A DNA stretch of 64,000 nucleotides from Bacteroidales bacterium (lineage in GTDB: Bacteria > Bacteroidota > Bacteroidia > Bacteroidales > UBA3824). Below, in pieces: positions 36,429 to 52,198 of the stretch. The stretch covers positions 1-64,000 of the forward strand of contig JAFXUC010000048.1 of the NCBI GenBank assembly GCA_017535325.1, written 5' to 3'. The translations under genes and the position numbers were made by a program. The notes under the pieces are model-generated. The model had not been told where the DNA came from and made no database searches. It was given only the letters and a program-made list of their open reading frames with translations. Each line of letters begins with the position of its first letter. Position 1 is the first letter of the stretch.

Positions 36429-36436
36429 TACCTTTG
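36429..36436 (+). promoter_or_regulatory. btuB promoter -7 box (TACCTTTG)
   Basis: TACCTTTG is a full TAnnTTTG match immediately upstream of the cobalamin riboswitch, so transcription would begin near 36441 at the first base-paired segment of the aptamer. Confidence 0.65.
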
Positions 36437-36439
36437 CAT

Positions 36440-36640
36440 CGGCGTTTTGTTTCCGTTTTTCTAAAATCCGAAAACACGGAATTAAAAGGGAATCAGGTGA
36501 AAAACCTGAACAGTCCCGCTGCTGTAAACTTTTTTAAAAGAAAACGTTACATTCTTTTGCCACTGTTTTTACGGGAAGGCGTAACGTTTTAAAGTAAGTC
36601 AGAAGACCTGCAAAACAGCCTTTTTAGTTGCCAAAAACTG
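36440..36640 (+). ncRNA. Cobalamin riboswitch
   Basis: The leader of btuB has the conserved parts of a B12 aptamer. These are AAAAGGGAATCAGGTG near 36483-36498 followed by AACCTGAACAGTCCCGCTGC, then GCCACTGTTTTTACGGGAAG near 36561-36580, and finally the B12-box region AGTAAGTCAGAAGACCTGC near 36593-36611. GCGTTTTG near 36442 can pair with CAAAACAGC near 36611 to close the P1 helix. High cobalamin is expected to shut off expression of the downstream transporter genes. The expression platform (36612-36686) contains no clear T-rich terminator, so control is more likely at translation. Confidence 0.92.
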
Positions 36641-45667: not shown

Positions 45668-46201
45668 ATGAACCGTAAATATACTTTGTTGATATATACC
45701 GAAAACCATGTCGGACTTTTGAACAGGATTTCGATAATTTTTACGCGGCACAAGGTTAATATTGAGTCGCTCAACACTTCACCCTCGATGGAAGAAGGCG
45801 TACACTCTTTTGTCATAACGGTAAATACTTCGCTTGCTCAGGCTGAGCATCTTCGCAAGGCGATAGAAAAGCAGGTTGAGGTTTTAAAGGCCTTTTTGTA
45901 CGAGGAAAAGCAGGTGATACCCATGGAAGTCGCGCTTTTTAAGATTTCGACGGCTAATCTTAAAAGCGGCAATGCGCTGGAAAAACTCATCCGCGAGTCT
46001 TCGGCGCGTATTATCACCGTAGAGCCGGAATTTTTGGTAATCGAAAAGACCGGCACGCAGTCCGACATTCAGGACTTTTTGAGGCAACTCTCTGATTTTG
46101 ACGTTCGTGAGTTTATTCAGTCGGGGCGCGTTATAGTTACACGTCCGATGGGAAAACTCAAAGATTATCTTTTGGAATTGGAAAAACAGGAAGAGGAATA
46201 A
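45668..46201 (+). CDS. ilvN: Acetolactate synthase small subunit (copy 1)
   Basis: A 177-residue regulatory subunit with an N-terminal ACT domain (YTLLIYTENHVGLLNRIS at residues 4-21) that normally senses valine, and a C-terminal ALS_ss_C domain (about 80-165, with LAKF/FLVIEKTGTQSDI). It stimulates the large subunit and gives feedback inhibition. It lies 9 nt after ilvB. The copy at 53.9 kb is 12 residues longer. Confidence 0.92.
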   Translation: MNRKYTLLIYTENHVGLLNRISIIFTRHKVNIESLNTSPSMEEGVHSFVITVNTSLAQAEHLRKAIEKQVEVLKAFLYEEKQVIPMEVALFKISTANLKSGNALEKLIRESSARIITVEPEFLVIEKTGTQSDIQDFLRQLSDFDVREFIQSGRVIVTRPMGKLKDYLLELEKQEEE

Positions 46202-46241
46202 AAAAATTAAAATATATTATTCTGCATAAGAAAATTATTTT

Positions 46242-46249
46242 TATATTTG
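46242..46249 (+). promoter_or_regulatory. Promoter -7 box ahead of the 6S region (TATATTTG)
   Basis: Full TAnnTTTG match 41 nt after the ilvN stop. A transcript would begin near 46255, just before the CCCCTGA hairpin. It is the best promoter candidate for the 6S RNA, although about 85 nt upstream of the conserved stem, so the RNA may be processed. Confidence 0.5.
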
Positions 46250-46261
46250 CAGTGTTCTTTT

Positions 46262-46300
46262 CCCCTGAAGCCCCAAGCGGGTGTCAGGGGTGAAAGGAAT
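46262..46300 (+). other. GC-rich hairpin followed by T run
   Basis: CCCCTGA (46262-46268) pairs perfectly with TCAGGGG (46284-46290), with an inner GCCC/GGGT extension and a CAAGC loop. A nine-T run lies at 46302-46310, about 11 nt after the stem, which is further than in a standard terminator. It may be a weak terminator of ilvBN, a separate short RNA, or the 5' part of the 6S precursor. Confidence 0.5.
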
Positions 46301-46335
46301 ATTTTTTTTTAAAAGGCGTTACTTCGCGCTTTGTT

Positions 46336-46512
46336 TTTGACTATCATAGATCTGGCAGTTTGTGAATACTTGTCAAAATCAAAGCAGCATTGTAATGCCC
46401 GACGGTATGTATTATCTCAGACCGATTGGTTTGTCATATACATAATACGTGGGGCTTTCGGTGTTGCTCGTTCTTGACAAGTGGGCAATGCCAGAGCCTT
46501 TGATAGTGGGAC
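46336..46512 (+). ncRNA. ssrS: 6S RNA (Bacteroidota 6S-Flavo type)
   Basis: About 175 nt fold into one long interrupted hairpin, as in 6S RNA. Paired segments, outside to inside, are: ACTATCA 46340-46346 with TGATAGT 46501-46507; TCTGGCA 46351-46357 with TGCCAGA 46489-46495; ACTTGTCAA 46368-46376 with TTGACAAGT 46474-46482; AGCA 46383-46386 with TGCT 46465-46468; GTATTAT 46409-46415 with ATAATAC 46442-46448; and an apical ACC/GGT hairpin near 46420. The large central bubble between the AGCA and GTATTAT helices would be the open-promoter mimic that traps the housekeeping RNA polymerase. The call is from structure alone, without a covariance search. Confidence 0.75.
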
Positions 46513-46547
46513 GAGCGGCTAAGAAATAAATCCCACGTCTTTTTTTT
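46506..46547 (+). terminator. Terminator of the 6S RNA
   Basis: GTGGGA (46506-46511) pairs with TCCCAC (46531-46536), followed by GTC and an eight-T run (46540-46547). The 5' arm starts in the last bases of the 6S closing stem, so formation of the terminator would compete slightly with that stem. Confidence 0.65.
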
Positions 46548-46749
46548 GTACTAAATTTTAAAAAAGTTCCTGTTTCGGGATTTAGGGGACAAAATTTTTT
46601 TTGATTAATGTTGTAACCTTTTTGTGGATTGCGACACTAAGAAGAAAAAACAAACAAAGTAACACCACCAATCAAACAATTTTAGTACGTCATTTCCAAA
46701 TGGTCAATGACTTGAATTGCTTGACTAATAACCAAAAGGAAGTAAAAAA
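46548..46749 (+). other. Leader region of the 46.7-51.3 kb cassette
   Basis: About 200 nt without a gene. It contains a short inverted repeat GTCATT (46689-46694) / AATGAC (46706-46711) and a purine-rich AAGGAAGT a few nt before the ATG at 46750 that could be a Shine-Dalgarno site. No full TAnnTTTG box was found; the nearest sequence is TAACCTTTTTG near 46615-46625. Confidence 0.4.
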
Positions 46750-47490
46750 ATGAAAAACTACAATTTAAAAATTGACGAGGCCTTCTCTGATATGGTAGAA
46801 GGATACGCAATGCAACTGAATTTAGCATCCGCGTTGGGCAATTCGGAAGATGCGGCATACTATGCTGACCAATTGTTTCGCGCTTGCTACGGAAGCAATG
46901 GACATAAATTGTTGCAAATAAGAGAAAGTGCATTGCAGCCGGTTGGCTTGGCATTCGTTAAAGTCGCCATTCACTTCGATTTTAATGACTTGGATCTGAA
47001 CTCAGTTGCCGCCGAAAACGCATTGTATTGTCTTGGCGCAAGTGTCATATCCAATCATAACACGTATTGCGCCCCGGCAATTTTCACACTTCTACTCAAT
47101 CATTCGAATTTGCTCAGGGACAAACTGATTGCTGCGCACTGCACAAACGCTGAGCGTGAAATGGGTATGTTTGCACCTATTAGAATGATGTTGGGTGGCA
47201 ATCCGTACACCGCACCACATTTGAATGAGTTCAGAACACAGGCTATCTCGAAGCGTGTGTTTATAATGACTTACTTGCTGTCGATGTTTTACGACATCAA
47301 CGGTAGGAAGTTCACGATTCCAAGCGATCTGTCGTATCATCTTCCAAAAGAGCAAGACATAGACAATTATATTGCTCTTGCAAAGGCAATGGACGCAGGT
47401 GCCAATTCCGCATTCAATCTGAAAGAAGGCGAAAAGTACTTCAATACGATTGTTGAGGAGTGTGGTGACACCCTTTCAAAAATGGTTTGA
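46750..47490 (+). CDS. Unrecognised helical protein, gene 1 of the candidate system
   Basis: A 246-residue soluble protein that I do not recognise. It is predicted to be all-helical, with a repeat-like N-terminal half (EDAAYYADQLFRACYG, then ESALQPVGLAFVKVAIHFDF) and a conserved-looking centre with several His, Cys and Asn residues (SNHNTYCAPAIFTLLLNH near 107-124). There is no signal peptide or membrane helix. It is the first of four co-oriented genes (gaps 47, 12 and 8 nt) lying between 6S RNA and a broken LRR gene. The block is AT-richer than the ilv genes on both sides. A scaffold or regulatory role in the cassette is possible. Confidence 0.7.
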   Translation: MKNYNLKIDEAFSDMVEGYAMQLNLASALGNSEDAAYYADQLFRACYGSNGHKLLQIRESALQPVGLAFVKVAIHFDFNDLDLNSVAAENALYCLGASVISNHNTYCAPAIFTLLLNHSNLLRDKLIAAHCTNAEREMGMFAPIRMMLGGNPYTAPHLNEFRTQAISKRVFIMTYLLSMFYDINGRKFTIPSDLSYHLPKEQDIDNYIALAKAMDAGANSAFNLKEGEKYFNTIVEECGDTLSKMV

Positions 47491-47537
47491 AAAATTGGTT
47501 GCTACGAACAAGTCTAATCAATAATACTGTAAAAAAA

Positions 47538-48173
47538 ATGACAGAAACAGAAAAATATGTGACCGAAGCAATGGCACAGTATAAGAGAGGAATTGATGGT
47601 GATGCTGTTTACCATCCTCTGTACAAAGCCTGGCGTTCATTTCAGAACGACGTTTCTCAACTCGGAAAGATTCAAGATTGTAGTCAATTCGGTATGGGTC
47701 TGATGTTTTTTCTCTCATACGGAACTGTCCGCAACATTGACGAACAACAACAATTGGCAAGCATTGCTTATTATTTCATAAGCAAGTCCATCAAGGAGAA
47801 TCCAAACAATATCAACAATTACAAGAATCGACTTCTCATTATGCTTCTGAATCAAGAAGCATTCCAATACACGGTGTCGTCTGTTGTAAATGAAGATGCA
47901 GGATTTGATTTTATGGGAATGCAAATGGGTTCGTTCAATGCAAGGGATGCAATGTTCAAGATGGAATTTGCAGACTTGCACACGAATCAGTCCCTATTGT
48001 CAATTGAAATGTTGAGGAACAGATACAATGATTTGCGCAACAAAATCTCATCCGGTTTTTTTGGCAACAGCGAAACATATCAAACGATTCAGCAAAGTGG
48101 TATGAAGTACCACAATGACGTTTTCTCATATATTGAGGAGAAGGTAATCACAGAACAAGACGTTGATTTCTAA
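47538..48173 (+). CDS. Unrecognised TPR-like helical protein, gene 2 of the candidate system
   Basis: A 211-residue soluble protein. ATG 47538 is chosen; the frame is open to 47487, but that start would overlap gene 1 and give unconserved-looking residues. The middle resembles a tetratricopeptide unit (SIAYYFISKSIKENPNNINNYKNRLLIMLLNQ pattern around residues 75-107), and MGMQMG with several Met residues follows. There is no catalytic motif. It lies 12 nt before the helicase-like gene, which suggests that it is an adaptor or regulator of that enzyme. Confidence 0.68.
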   Translation: MTETEKYVTEAMAQYKRGIDGDAVYHPLYKAWRSFQNDVSQLGKIQDCSQFGMGLMFFLSYGTVRNIDEQQQLASIAYYFISKSIKENPNNINNYKNRLLIMLLNQEAFQYTVSSVVNEDAGFDFMGMQMGSFNARDAMFKMEFADLHTNQSLLSIEMLRNRYNDLRNKISSGFFGNSETYQTIQQSGMKYHNDVFSYIEEKVITEQDVDF

Positions 48174-48185
48174 ATAAGTGGAATT

Positions 48186-49523
48186 ATGCGACAAAAAAAA
48201 TGGTTCATAAGCAATCTCGACGATTCTCAGCGCAAAGTAATCATAGAGGACATCGAAAAAAGCATAATTGTACAAGGTATGGCGGGCAGTGGGAAAACCA
48301 ACCTTGCCATACACCGTGCTTTACAGGCGAAAGGGAAGGGATCGTATGCTATTGTTATTATGACAGTAGCATTGCGACGAATGATAGCATACGGTATGAA
48401 AGCGGTGGGCTTGGATAGCGAGCGAATCGCTTATGAATGGTCGTGGATAAACAGAGGTTTCGATTTGGAAGGTGATGTTTTTAACACATATAAGCCTTCC
48501 GGCGAAATAGATGAAAACATTGTTTATCTTGTAAATGGTAAAAATGTTCGTAAATTTGAACTCGCTTTCAAAGAGTATCAAGCACCATATTCAAAAAGCA
48601 AAGGATATTTTGGTATTGATTTCGCCGATTGGGTTGACTATTCGTATTACAAAACTTGGCATAGAAGAACGAGTTGGTTTAAAGAAGTTCCGATGGATTA
48701 TGTTTTCAATATTTCTGATTCAAGATACAACTTGGTGCCAAGTGGAACACTCTACAAATCGGTAGAAGATGTCATCGATTACATTGTTGTTGATGAAGCA
48801 CAGGATTTCTGTGTAAACGAGTATAAAACACGTTTTATTCCAAAGGCAGGTAAGAGTATTTCCTTGTTGGGAGACTCAAATCAGAAAATGATAAAAGGCG
48901 GCAACTCTATTCAAGAGTTACAAATGGCATTTCCTGATTTCAAACCATTTAAATTGAAGTACAACTACCGTTTACCTAAATCCATAGCAAAAGTTGCACA
49001 AAAAATCTCTAACAATGAAATTGATTTAATGTCTGACAATCTCAAAGACAATGGTAACAGTGATTTCCCGAACTTCCCCAAACCAATTGTAAAAAAATGT
49101 GGTTCAAGGGAAGATGAAATAAGATGGATTGCAAATTTGATTAATAATGAAGGTCTTGATGATGTTGCAATTTTAGTCTTAGGTGACGCTAATGTTCAAG
49201 AAGTTATCAGATTGTTGGCAGAGAATGGTATCGAACAAGTTCAAACCCATTATAGAACAAGAGCGGAAGTTCCTTTCCACACGGTCAACACTTTGGATTT
49301 TTCAAACAATGAATTGCCCTGCATATTGGATTATTATGCGGCAAAAGGATCAGAGTTTGACAACGTGTTTGTCCCGTTTGCTAACGAAGGTTACGTAGGC
49401 AAAAATAATGATTTTTTCGTTGCTTGCACTCGCTCTTCGCATAGTCTGTACATTACATATTCAGGAATACGGACATCGTATTTGAGAAATGTTAATAAAA
49501 ATGATATTGTAGAATATAAATAA
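48186..49523 (+). CDS. Compact SF1 (UvrD/Rep-like) helicase or NTPase, gene 3 of the candidate system
   Basis: A 445-residue P-loop protein with SF1 helicase motifs in order. Motif I is VQGMAGSGKTNLA near residues 28-40, motif II is VVDEAQDF near 201-208, motif III is LLGDSNQKM near 225-233, motif IV/Va-type is KYNYRLPKSIA near 258-268, then DYYAAKGSEFDNVFVPF near 382-398 and the motif VI-like FFVACTRSSHSLYITYS near 411-427. The motif VI Arg is present in CTR. At 445 residues it is much shorter than UvrD (about 720), lacks most of the 1B/2B insertions and carries no nuclease domain. It could be a helicase, a translocase or a signalling NTPase. It is central to the four-gene cassette. Confidence 0.85.
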   Translation: MRQKKWFISNLDDSQRKVIIEDIEKSIIVQGMAGSGKTNLAIHRALQAKGKGSYAIVIMTVALRRMIAYGMKAVGLDSERIAYEWSWINRGFDLEGDVFNTYKPSGEIDENIVYLVNGKNVRKFELAFKEYQAPYSKSKGYFGIDFADWVDYSYYKTWHRRTSWFKEVPMDYVFNISDSRYNLVPSGTLYKSVEDVIDYIVVDEAQDFCVNEYKTRFIPKAGKSISLLGDSNQKMIKGGNSIQELQMAFPDFKPFKLKYNYRLPKSIAKVAQKISNNEIDLMSDNLKDNGNSDFPNFPKPIVKKCGSREDEIRWIANLINNEGLDDVAILVLGDANVQEVIRLLAENGIEQVQTHYRTRAEVPFHTVNTLDFSNNELPCILDYYAAKGSEFDNVFVPFANEGYVGKNNDFFVACTRSSHSLYITYSGIRTSYLRNVNKNDIVEYK

Positions 49524-49531
49524 GTGAACAA

Positions 49532-51259
49532 ATGAAATACTACATTGAAATAAGTTCGTGGAATCTTTTGGAGTCATTTGTTACCGAAAGCATATCCCCT
49601 TTCTCATTCTATCAAGAAAGGAATTTTGGCAACAATTTGAGCCGCTATATGAGTGGAGGAAAGGAAAGGACATATCACCTTATTCTTTCTACAAAAGATT
49701 TGGGCGGCGATTATTCGATATGCGTTGATGAAACTCTCATTGATACAAGTATTCTTGTTCCTATCAAAGGATTAAAAACCGCATTTATGTATCCAAAAAC
49801 GATTTATTATCGCAAAGGATATGTAAGTTTCCGTTTCGGGTCTTCGGATTTAAAGGATGCTTTAATATCCGAATCGCAGATACTTCTCGAAGTGAAAAGT
49901 GTAGAAAAATATTCTTCTGATTTTTATATCAAAACCATTGACACCAAAGAAGTTAAAGCCATTTCTAATTTGGGCAATTTATTGTCGTCTGACTACAAAA
50001 AATACATTGACTTTGATAACTCATTCAATAAAATCAAAGGTGCTATTACGGGTTATGTCAGGGGACTTTACACTTCCACCGATGAATCAAATCGTATGTT
50101 GCAGTCAAAATTGAGAGATTTGAAAAACTCATTTGGCGGTTTCAACACACAGATAATGATTAACGACACTTTTCACGAAAATCCTGAAATTTGTAGTTTG
50201 ATTGACGAGTGCAAATCTATGTATTTTGCACAAATAGAGCATACTAATTCTTTTGATGTACTGTCGGCACAATACAAAGAAATTGTAAAGTTGGCAACGT
50301 TAAGGGCAAAAGACATACAGGTGCAAACGTCTTTTGCCGCAAGAGAAAAATTGATTCAAGATAAAACATCAGTTGAAAATCAAATTGCCAAAATAGAAAG
50401 GAAGTTTGACATTTACAATGTTAGGCTTGAATTGGAAAACATCAAATCATTGGAAAAGGCCAATGGGAAAAAAATCGGAAAGACAAGGAACTATTTCAAA
50501 AAAGGTTCCTTAGAATATGAACGCAAAAAACAACTCAAACAAATCATTGAGGATTTTGAGAAAAATAATTCAGAATACGGTGAACTAAGAGGAAGGCTTT
50601 ACCAAATAGAGCAACATCTTAGTGGTGACACAAATAAGTATGATACAACAATTTCTGCATATTTTGCACGTGTGAGCGATATTATCAATGATTTGATAAA
50701 AAGTGTTGCATCGGTAGCAAGCAAAGATGAGATTAGTCTTTCTTCTGTAAAAATTTCTGATGGCAATATATTGTTTAATAATTTGGACGGGAACCCCGAA
50801 ATATGCTATTTCAATATCGTATTAGAACTGATTTTGCAAAAAAGCGGTTCAATGCAGTTGTCTGAATTTGCCGCATTGCAAGTCTTGGAAGAATCGGGAA
50901 AGAAATTTAAAACGAATCCTATTTCCAATACAGACAAAGGTAATAGAATTCTAAAATGTCTTCGTGAATTTTGGATGTACAAACACCAACAAATCGAGCA
51001 ATTCGATGTACCAAAGGAAGATATGCCAATCTTTCAATCTGTATTTGCTTTCTTTATAAAACCATTGGATTATGAACAGATTGAAAGGTATATGCTTTTA
51101 AAAAAATTTTCACAAAAAGCGTATGCTTTTATGCTGTGGGCTGCGTGGGTAGGTTTTGCCGACTTGCCAAAGACTTTCACGAATATTTTGTATTCTGATG
51201 AAAAAGTTACGTCCATTGTTGACGTATTTTTATTAACATTGCAAAAACAAAATCAGTAA
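49532..51259 (+). CDS. Unrecognised coiled-coil protein, gene 4 of the candidate system
   Basis: A 575-residue soluble protein that I do not recognise. Residues 1-150 look like mixed alpha/beta (MKYYIEISSWNLLESFVTES, FGNNLSRYMSGG, SFRFGSSDLKDAL). A long charged coiled coil covers about 250-375 (VENQIAKIERKFDIYNVRL, EYERKKQLKQIIEDFE). The C-terminal 190 residues are helical and Trp/Phe-rich (KCLREFWMYKH, FMLWAAWVGFADLPKTF). No catalytic motif is obvious. It lies 8 nt after the helicase-like gene. A coiled-coil partner beside an SF1 motor is an arrangement also seen in known DNA-surveillance systems, but no specific family can be named. Confidence 0.75.
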   Translation: MKYYIEISSWNLLESFVTESISPFSFYQERNFGNNLSRYMSGGKERTYHLILSTKDLGGDYSICVDETLIDTSILVPIKGLKTAFMYPKTIYYRKGYVSFRFGSSDLKDALISESQILLEVKSVEKYSSDFYIKTIDTKEVKAISNLGNLLSSDYKKYIDFDNSFNKIKGAITGYVRGLYTSTDESNRMLQSKLRDLKNSFGGFNTQIMINDTFHENPEICSLIDECKSMYFAQIEHTNSFDVLSAQYKEIVKLATLRAKDIQVQTSFAAREKLIQDKTSVENQIAKIERKFDIYNVRLELENIKSLEKANGKKIGKTRNYFKKGSLEYERKKQLKQIIEDFEKNNSEYGELRGRLYQIEQHLSGDTNKYDTTISAYFARVSDIINDLIKSVASVASKDEISLSSVKISDGNILFNNLDGNPEICYFNIVLELILQKSGSMQLSEFAALQVLEESGKKFKTNPISNTDKGNRILKCLREFWMYKHQQIEQFDVPKEDMPIFQSVFAFFIKPLDYEQIERYMLLKKFSQKAYAFMLWAAWVGFADLPKTFTNILYSDEKVTSIVDVFLLTLQKQNQ

Positions 51260-51273
51260 TGCAATGAGCAACT

Positions 51274-51507
51274 ATGAAAACCAAACCTCTCAAATATCCC
51301 AAGTCCTACGGCGTCCGAGACGAATTTGGAGCACTGTACAGCGCGGATGGAACAAAACTGTTGAAATACGACAATGACGATTTGGAAACGTATTCCGTCA
51401 GAGAAGGCACAAAAATTATTTGTGATGGTGCGTTTTTGCATTTAGATAATAGAAATTTCTTAAAAAAGTTGCACGATATTGAAACTTTTGTTACATTTGC
51501 GCTATGA
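51274..51507 (+). pseudogene. Truncated BspA-like leucine-rich-repeat protein
   Basis: A 77-residue open frame. The part ALYSADGTKLLKYDNDDLET followed by REGTKIICDGAFLH is the typical opening of BspA-type leucine-rich repeats (YSADGKTLLK..., then ...G.I.DGAF), but the frame then changes to unrelated sequence and stops without any complete LRR array. BspA proteins usually have several hundred residues and a signal peptide; neither is present. It is therefore probably a remnant left by a rearrangement at the edge of the inserted block. Its last 4 nt overlap the toxin gene. Confidence 0.5.
51469..51499 (+). promoter_or_regulatory. Promoter of the higBA-type pair (TTG-N20-TACATTTG)
   Basis: TTG at 51469-51471 and TACATTTG at 51492-51499 have the normal spacing. 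The start would coincide with the toxin ATG at 51504, predicting a leaderless message. Confidence 0.5.
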
Positions 51508-51845
51508 ATCGCACTATACTGACATACGGCGGATATTTTGAGGCTTTTATGGAGAGTTTGCAAGAGAAGGAGCGAGAAAAAATCCAATATGGTCTTCTTC
51601 TCTTGAAAACTCAAAACAGGCTTTCTACCAAGTTTGTGAAACACATCAAGGACGGTGTTTATGAACTTCGTACAGAGTATGCAGGCAATATTTACAGAGT
51701 ATTCTTCATTTTTGACGACGGAAATATTGTGGTGCTTTTCAACGGTTTTCAGAAGAAAACACAGAAAACCCCGCAAAATGAAATTGACAAAGCATTAAAA
51801 ATAAAGGAGGAATATTATGCCGACAAACGATCACAAAATACGTAA
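51504..51845 (+). CDS. higB: HigB/Gp49-type toxin of a toxin-antitoxin pair
   Basis: A 113-residue protein of the Gp49/HigB (RelE superfamily) type, ribosome-dependent mRNA interferases in characterised members. Recognisable parts are KIQYGLLLLKTQNRLSTKFVKHIKDGVYELRTEYAGNIYRVFF in family order (residues about 26-68: helix, then DGVYELR and YRVFF strands) and VVLFNGFQKKTQKTP near 76-90, which supplies the usual basic active-site residues. The gene comes first and the antitoxin second, as in higBA, with a 29-nt overlap. It borders the candidate system and may stabilise the inserted block. Confidence 0.87.
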   Translation: MNRTILTYGGYFEAFMESLQEKEREKIQYGLLLLKTQNRLSTKFVKHIKDGVYELRTEYAGNIYRVFFIFDDGNIVVLFNGFQKKTQKTPQNEIDKALKIKEEYYADKRSQNT

Positions 51846-52122
51846 CTACGACCTCGTTCTTGACGAAACCTTTGGCAAACAGGGAACACCTGAACGTGCA
51901 AAGGCGGAGGAAGAAGCGTATAATTTTTATTCGGGACAGATTTTGCAAACCGCCCGCAAGGAAGCAAAAATCACACAGTTGGAACTCGCCAACCGCGCTC
52001 ACACAACAAAATCTTACATCTCAAAAATTGAGAACGGCATCGTAACTCCCACAGTCGGAATGTTTTACCGTATCATTGCCGCTTTGGGAATGAGGGTTGA
52101 GATTGTTAAACCTATGTATTAA
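51817..52122 (+). CDS. higA: HigA-type antitoxin with XRE helix-turn-helix
   Basis: A 101-residue protein whose C-terminal half is an XRE-family HTH (QLELANRAHTTKSYISKIENG near residues 61-81, then PTVGMFYRIIAALGMRVEI). It should bind and neutralise the toxin encoded just upstream and repress the shared promoter. A strong Shine-Dalgarno sequence AAAGGAGG lies at 51803-51810, 6 nt before the ATG. This is unusual for Bacteroidota, whose messages mostly lack such sites, and would favour antitoxin excess. It ends the inserted block, 76 nt before the second ilvB. Confidence 0.88.
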   Translation: MPTNDHKIRNYDLVLDETFGKQGTPERAKAEEEAYNFYSGQILQTARKEAKITQLELANRAHTTKSYISKIENGIVTPTVGMFYRIIAALGMRVEIVKPMY

Positions 52123-52198
52123 AATCACTTTCTTTCAGAAAAAAATTTGCAGATGTTTATATTTTTTTGTTAATTTGCGGAAAATATTTACGAAGAAA

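Follow-up and report, generated by a model that had tools for sequence, protein, structure and literature searches.

A conserved helicase gene pair of the Bacteroidota with predicted ADP-ribosyltransferase-like and ARH-like folds and a likely role in defence

The analysis of a stretch of 64,000 nucleotides from a Bacteroidales genome (hereafter, the window) outlined a conserved unit of two adjacent genes, the third and fourth of a co-oriented series of four. Gene 3 encodes a compact SF1 helicase and gene 4 a protein in which a predicted ADP-ribosyltransferase (ART)-like domain is followed by an ARH-like domain interrupted by a coiled coil (Table 1). The gene-4 family recurs in gut and rumen Bacteroidota. 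The pair is probably an undescribed antivirus system of gut-type Bacteroidales, with a role in defence made likely by its gene neighbourhoods. On balance, we favour its interpretation as a defence module in which ADP-ribosylation would be coupled to the helicase and around which the accessory genes would be swappable.

Table 1. Position of the features discussed in the text, in window coordinates.
Feature	Position	Strand	Basis
Insert of 5.9 kb separating two ilvBN pairs	46202..52138	.	Flank alignment and junction sequences
Dispersed rod-folding repeat, ~240 nt	46312..46550	+	Multi-copy, folding (not 6S RNA)
Gene 1 (246 aa), accessory helical protein	46750..47490	+	Relative 35% identical beside TerB in L040
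Gene 2 (211 aa), accessory helical protein	47538..48173	+	Distant relative (~26%) beside TerB in L041
Gene 3 (445 aa), core gene for the compact, UvrD/HelD-like SF1 helicase	48186..49523	+	Pfam and PDB matches, motifs, pairing 18/18
Helicase motif I, GMAGSGKT	48276..48299	+	Sequence motif
Helicase motif II, VVDEAQDF	48786..48809	+	Sequence motif
Helicase motif VI, VACTRSS	49419..49439	+	Sequence motif
Gene 4 (575 aa), core gene: ART-like domain, then ARH-like domain interrupted by a coiled coil	49532..51259	+	Predicted structure
Gene 4 residues 1-139: predicted ADP-ribosyltransferase fold (DarT/Tpt1-like)	49532..49948	+	Invariant E19, R30, K122; E120 in 16/18
Residues 155-183 of gene 4: opening helix of the ARH-like fold, with the motif DxxxNxIKGxxxGYxxG	49994..50080	+	Model
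Residues 184-396 of gene 4: coiled-coil/helical insertion, to which the weak SH3BP5 match is due	50081..50719	+	Model, Pfam
Residues 397-575 of gene 4: remainder of the ARH-like fold, with no conservation at the metal-ligand positions	50720..51256	+	Model
HigB-type toxin (Gp49/PF05973), insert neighbour	51504..51845	+	Pfam and other profile matches
XRE-family antitoxin, insert neighbour	51817..52122	+	Profile match

The preliminary description of this region had proposed a single cassette of four genes. The four open reading frames lie on the forward strand with gaps of 47, 12 and 8 nt, exactly as it had reported, but only genes 3 and 4 recur as a unit. Relatives of gene 4 were located at 17 further loci (L008, L009, L010-L019, L028, L029, L032, L033 and L034), and in all 18 distinct loci, spread across the Bacteroidota, gene 4 comes directly after a helicase gene of the same orientation, with 1-16 nt between the two; the helicase reading frame is split in one of these loci (L013). 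The suggestion that the gene order might be kept elsewhere hence holds for genes 3 and 4, which co-occur at the 17 other loci, and fails for genes 1 and 2, which were found at no other pair locus examined. The two proteins of the pair also diverge in parallel, as revealed by the correlation of their distance matrices (r=0.95, 0/2000 permutations, 17 pairs). Two additional search matches, in genomes G450 and G060, were judged to be chance matches from their gene neighbourhoods.

The sequence of gene 3 presents all the motifs that define SF1 helicases of the UvrD/Rep type (I, Ia, II, III, V and VI), together with the NYR motif, and matches the Pfam UvrD_C family over its cut-off (E 1.7e-11). As had been anticipated, it is the only one of the four genes with a recognisable family; the other three yielded no match in Pfam, NCBIfam, PADLOC or PHROGs, bar a sub-threshold match of gene 4 to a coiled-coil family (SH3BP5). 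The best PDB and NCBIfam match of the C-terminal half of gene 3 is HelD, the RNA polymerase recycling motor, from which it differs in its score (69 bits against the HelD cut-off of 419), its much shorter length and its fixed partner. The UvrD-like SF1 helicases of Gabija (GajB) and of the PADLOC RTasHel model are also relatives of gene 3. In contrast with Gabija, the partner here is a member of the gene-4 family, and no OLD-family nuclease of the GajA type is present in the insert that carries the window pair; unlike in the RTasHel setting, this insert contains no reverse transcriptase (RT).

The expectation of a DarT-like signature in the N-terminal region of gene 4 was written down before the structural search. 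A model of this region alone (residues 1-185, pLDDT 78) was compared with known structures using VIA-align, and the first 19 rows all corresponded to ART folds: DarT (Z 6.7-7.6), Tpt1/KptA (Z up to 7.3), TreTu, Arr and CC0527, which we take to be an ART-like DUF952 protein. The lowest of these rows scored 3.5, and the next row in the list, an unrelated one, 2.7. The top three Foldseek matches of the same model were all DarT. An ART fold can thus be assigned to this domain with considerable confidence, as far as a predicted structure allows. An alternative reading of the LLEVK segment (E120-x-K122) as a PD-(D/E)XK nuclease motif was discarded, the model presenting no such strand.

Membership in the DarT family proper is not apparent at the sequence level. 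Gene 4 did not match the DarT Pfam family (PF14487) at E<=1, and the reverse profile search was not significant. In DarT1, the NAD+-binding residues of the H-x-T motif in beta-1 are H17 and T19, and the catalytic residues are R52 and E152 (PMC11543638). The positions equivalent to the H-x-T residues (5 and 7) are both isoleucine in the window protein, and a threonine at position 7 appears only in divergent members. E19, R30 and K122 are invariant in the 18 sequences. R30 and E120 are candidate equivalents of R52 and E152, and E120 is conserved in 16 of the 18, having been lost in L029 and L034. Given the replacement of the histidine and the loss of the candidate glutamate in these two loci, some members of the family may therefore be inactive.

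The model of the complete protein, generated with AlphaFold on 13 aligned sequences (pLDDT 85), suggests that the preliminary description of gene 4 as a coiled-coil protein was correct as to the coil and missed the ART and ARH folds predicted around it. Residues 164-575, excluding the coiled coil (~184-396), aligned with ARH3, ARH1 and DraG over 190 residues at 3.3 A and with Z of up to 13.4, in a range (13-14) that helical models can reach by chance. The alignment nonetheless spans the three proteins from their opening helix to their final one, starting with model residue 164 on residue 19 of ARH3 and 163 on residue 5 of DraG, and the rows competing with it cover only ~110 residues of coiled coil or have an rmsd above 11 A. 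Furthermore, the invariant G170 of the DxxxNxIKG motif presumably falls on the glycine of the RxRG/DRxxG-type motif at the N-terminus of ARH proteins, in a register counted by hand from the ARH3 and DraG sequences. An all-alpha ARH fold is hence the likely assignment for the C-terminal domain in the predicted model.

No ARH profile (PF03747) match accompanies this fold, and neither the comparison with ARH sequence profiles from related genomes nor the hhalign, hmmsearch and PDB hmmsearch comparisons aimed at the ART and ARH domains of gene 4 were significant. Foldseek searches with the complete model against PDB and BFVD were likewise set aside: they returned no match below E 0.001, and their lists were filled with coiled-coil matches. 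The positions of the DxDT metal site read Q/A/Y, D/R/L or other combinations in all members, in a register set by motif alignment, and the T-D-D segment has apparently been replaced by the coiled coil. The ARH domain of gene 4 is therefore probably inactive.

The loss of the metal ligands in all members, together with the absence of the H-x-T histidine and the loss of E120 in two of 18 sequences, means that both ADP-ribose domains of gene 4 may be binders only. The protein would then be a non-catalytic reader that senses NAD+ or ADP-ribose adducts (for instance, those left by phage ARTs) and switches the helicase, which would be the effector. We regard this as unlikely, albeit the best placed of the alternatives, because the invariance of E19, R30 and K122 and the conservation of E120 in 16 of 18 sequences have the appearance of a retained active site. 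Whether the ART domain is catalytically active is, in our assessment of the model, evenly balanced.

A defence role, as had been proposed, draws support from the genes that accompany the pair. By raw count, recognised defence genes lie within about 8 kb of it in six of the 17 other loci (L016, L018, L028, L029, L033 and L034). In L028 the pair is enclosed by a BREX system, between PglX and PglZ/BrxL, and in L029 it lies near the Hachiman gene hamB. A retron-type RT follows the pair in L016 and L018, with AbiD also nearby in the latter; PDC-S05 is present in L033, and PtuA-like and HNH candidates in L034. WYL regulators accompany the pair in L016-L018 and L028. A protein of ~296 aa after the retron-type RT was also observed in two genera (L016 11394-12281, L018 11912-12805), with no match in Pfam (L016) or PADLOC.

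A different set of companions characterises L008-L014, where a methyltransferase-like gene precedes the helicase and a DUF1848 gene follows gene 4. DUF1848 also lies directly after gene 4 in L033 and L034, and a methyltransferase-like gene is often found before the helicase. DUF1848 carries a CxxxxCxYCYA motif, which by eye is radical-SAM-like. When examined on L010, the methyltransferase-like and DUF1848 companions matched the PADLOC RTasDUF1848 and RT_UG35 models, as in the DRT/UG RT neighbourhoods with DUF1848; the gene-4 family is not part of PADLOC, and no RT was seen in L008-L014. The best reading of these arrangements is that the accessories up- and downstream of the pair are exchangeable. 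Our literature searches on DUF1848 and on helicase-coupled ART/ARH systems returned nothing, and a survey of BREX systems (PMC12839542) does not mention ADP-ribosylation.

The proposal that the region is a mobile module was borne out. The ilvBN pairs lie directly side by side in a sibling genome (G689, locus L063), where the counterparts of window positions 46200 and 52140 are 4448 and 4432 and each flank aligns at 86% identity. It follows that the cassette is part of a 5.9-kb insert, along with a HigBA-type pair and a repeat element. No target duplication was seen at its junctions. Another genome (G698; L066, 4430-6050) has an unrelated ATPase gene in the same position, and the gap between the ilvBN pairs therefore looks like a cargo hotspot. 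The distribution of the pair is patchy (five of 295 genomes of the order and five of 395 genomes of the phylum), two of its loci (L015 and L032) lie on mobilisable-element-like segments, and copies are also found on viral- or phage-labelled contigs. One such phage-labelled contig came from the phage searches, the remainder of which, like the plasmid searches, returned no match. The core is AT-richer than the ilv genes, as had been claimed for the whole cassette (GC 0.37 for the helicase and 0.34 for gene 4, against 0.49 and 0.475 for the ilvB genes), a claim that does not extend to gene 1, whose GC content (0.43) equals that of ilvN. A sigma-70 promoter scan returned no more sites than in shuffled sequences.

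This context bears on two further explanations. Since the scores of Tpt1/KptA structures come close to those of DarT, the pair might combine a Tpt1-like 2'-phosphotransferase domain with the helicase in a nucleic-acid repair or RNA-processing module unrelated to defence; the mobile, patchy and defence-embedded setting of the pair is unlike that of housekeeping repair, and makes this improbable. Equally improbable is that the pair plays no part against viruses and is selfish or addiction cargo carried by a mobile element. The mobilisable-element-like segments would fit it, as would the HigBA-type pair in the insert, correctly recognised in the preliminary description (Gp49, Pfam 7.6e-24, followed by an XRE HTH gene overlapping it by 29 nt). 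Against it, the pair is repeatedly surrounded by systems dedicated to defence, and in one locus it has BREX genes on either side. The 77-aa reading frame earlier interpreted as a broken LRR gene had no Pfam match and no second copy within the genome.

Genes 1 and 2 are distantly related to each other and belong to a separate family of helical proteins associated with TerB. A profile search detected the gene-1 family in two of 374 genomes of the order, the second instance lying beside TerB with no helicase, and scans of viral contigs detected neither gene. The best reading of the two genes is that of a locally acquired accessory. A single obligatory system made up of all four genes, with genes 1 and 2 as subunits, is the least probable of the alternatives: the gaps of 47 nt (genes 1-2) and 12 nt (genes 2-3) suggest co-transcription, yet both genes are missing from the other pair loci. 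Relatives of genes 1 and 2 were also observed in a recurrent Bacteroidales operon with a protein of ~140 aa and a TerB-like gene named by eye (L040 6514-8516, L041 6988-9294).

In the helicase-coupled interpretation that we favour, the SF1 helicase would load on invader nucleic acid, such as replication or repair intermediates, and deliver or license the ART domain of gene 4, which would ADP-ribosylate either the nucleic acid or a protein bound to it, so that phage replication, or the cell itself, is stopped. Split by the coiled-coil arm, the degenerate ARH domain would bind ADP-ribose or the ART site and restrain the enzyme at rest, with the accessory role filled here by the two TerB-associated helical proteins. 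Catalysis, target, restraint and antiphage effect are what we infer around folds taken from predicted structures.

ADP-ribosylation is an established antiphage weapon, as exemplified by DarTG. Like this system, in which the DarT toxin is paired with the DarG macrodomain antitoxin (or with NADAR in its variants), gene 4 appears to tie a DarT-type ART fold to an ADP-ribose-handling domain in a defence setting. It differs in that this second domain is ARH-like, apparently inactive and fused in the same chain, in its coupling to an SF1 helicase and in the absence of both the H-x-T histidine and a DarT Pfam match; no macrodomain or NADAR antitoxin was found among the Pfam-scanned neighbours of the pair. 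A combination of ART and ARH folds is also present in the DraT-DraG and ART-ARG (ARH) toxin-antitoxin pairs, which are encoded by separate genes, with a metal-binding ARH and no helicase (PMC9503650), whereas gene 4 is a helicase-linked fusion that has lost the metal site.

The absence of the gene-4 family from Pfam, NCBIfam, PADLOC 2023 and PHROGs agrees with the earlier view of the system as undescribed, and the present analysis provides a first structural reading of this family. The parts of the system belong to known fold families, but neither the papers nor the family libraries that were searched contained a nucleic-acid motor combined with a writer and a dead eraser fused in one chain (ART-coiled-coil-pseudoARH); hence, we propose a form of ADP-ribosylation defence that could realistically prove to be a new type of system. 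The complete proposal, in which the helicase would target the fused enzyme to invader nucleic acid, the dead glycohydrolase would act as a built-in brake and the accessory sets, including BREX, would differ, is more tentative and falls somewhat short of probable. The pair nevertheless provides a concrete case in which the idea of a pseudoenzyme brake in bacterial immunity can be put to the test.

Upstream of gene 1, the element initially taken for a 6S RNA gene matched no Rfam family, RF00013 included, even at E<=5, and proved instead to be a dispersed, multi-copy repeat. It folds into a long rod (MFE -89 kcal/mol, z -6.6) and is present in most genomes of the genus, with up to 14 matches in each and four in the window genome; its copies are 70-80% identical and sit between unrelated genes. 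It may be a MITE-like element or an undescribed structured RNA. Elsewhere in the window, a cobalamin riboswitch was identified at 36430-36629 (Rfam RF00174, 100 bits). Lastly, positions 1-2000 encompass two glycosyltransferase-like genes that, unlike the rest of the window, combine a low GC content (26-28%) with a strong GC skew (0.31-0.35), and were therefore likely acquired.
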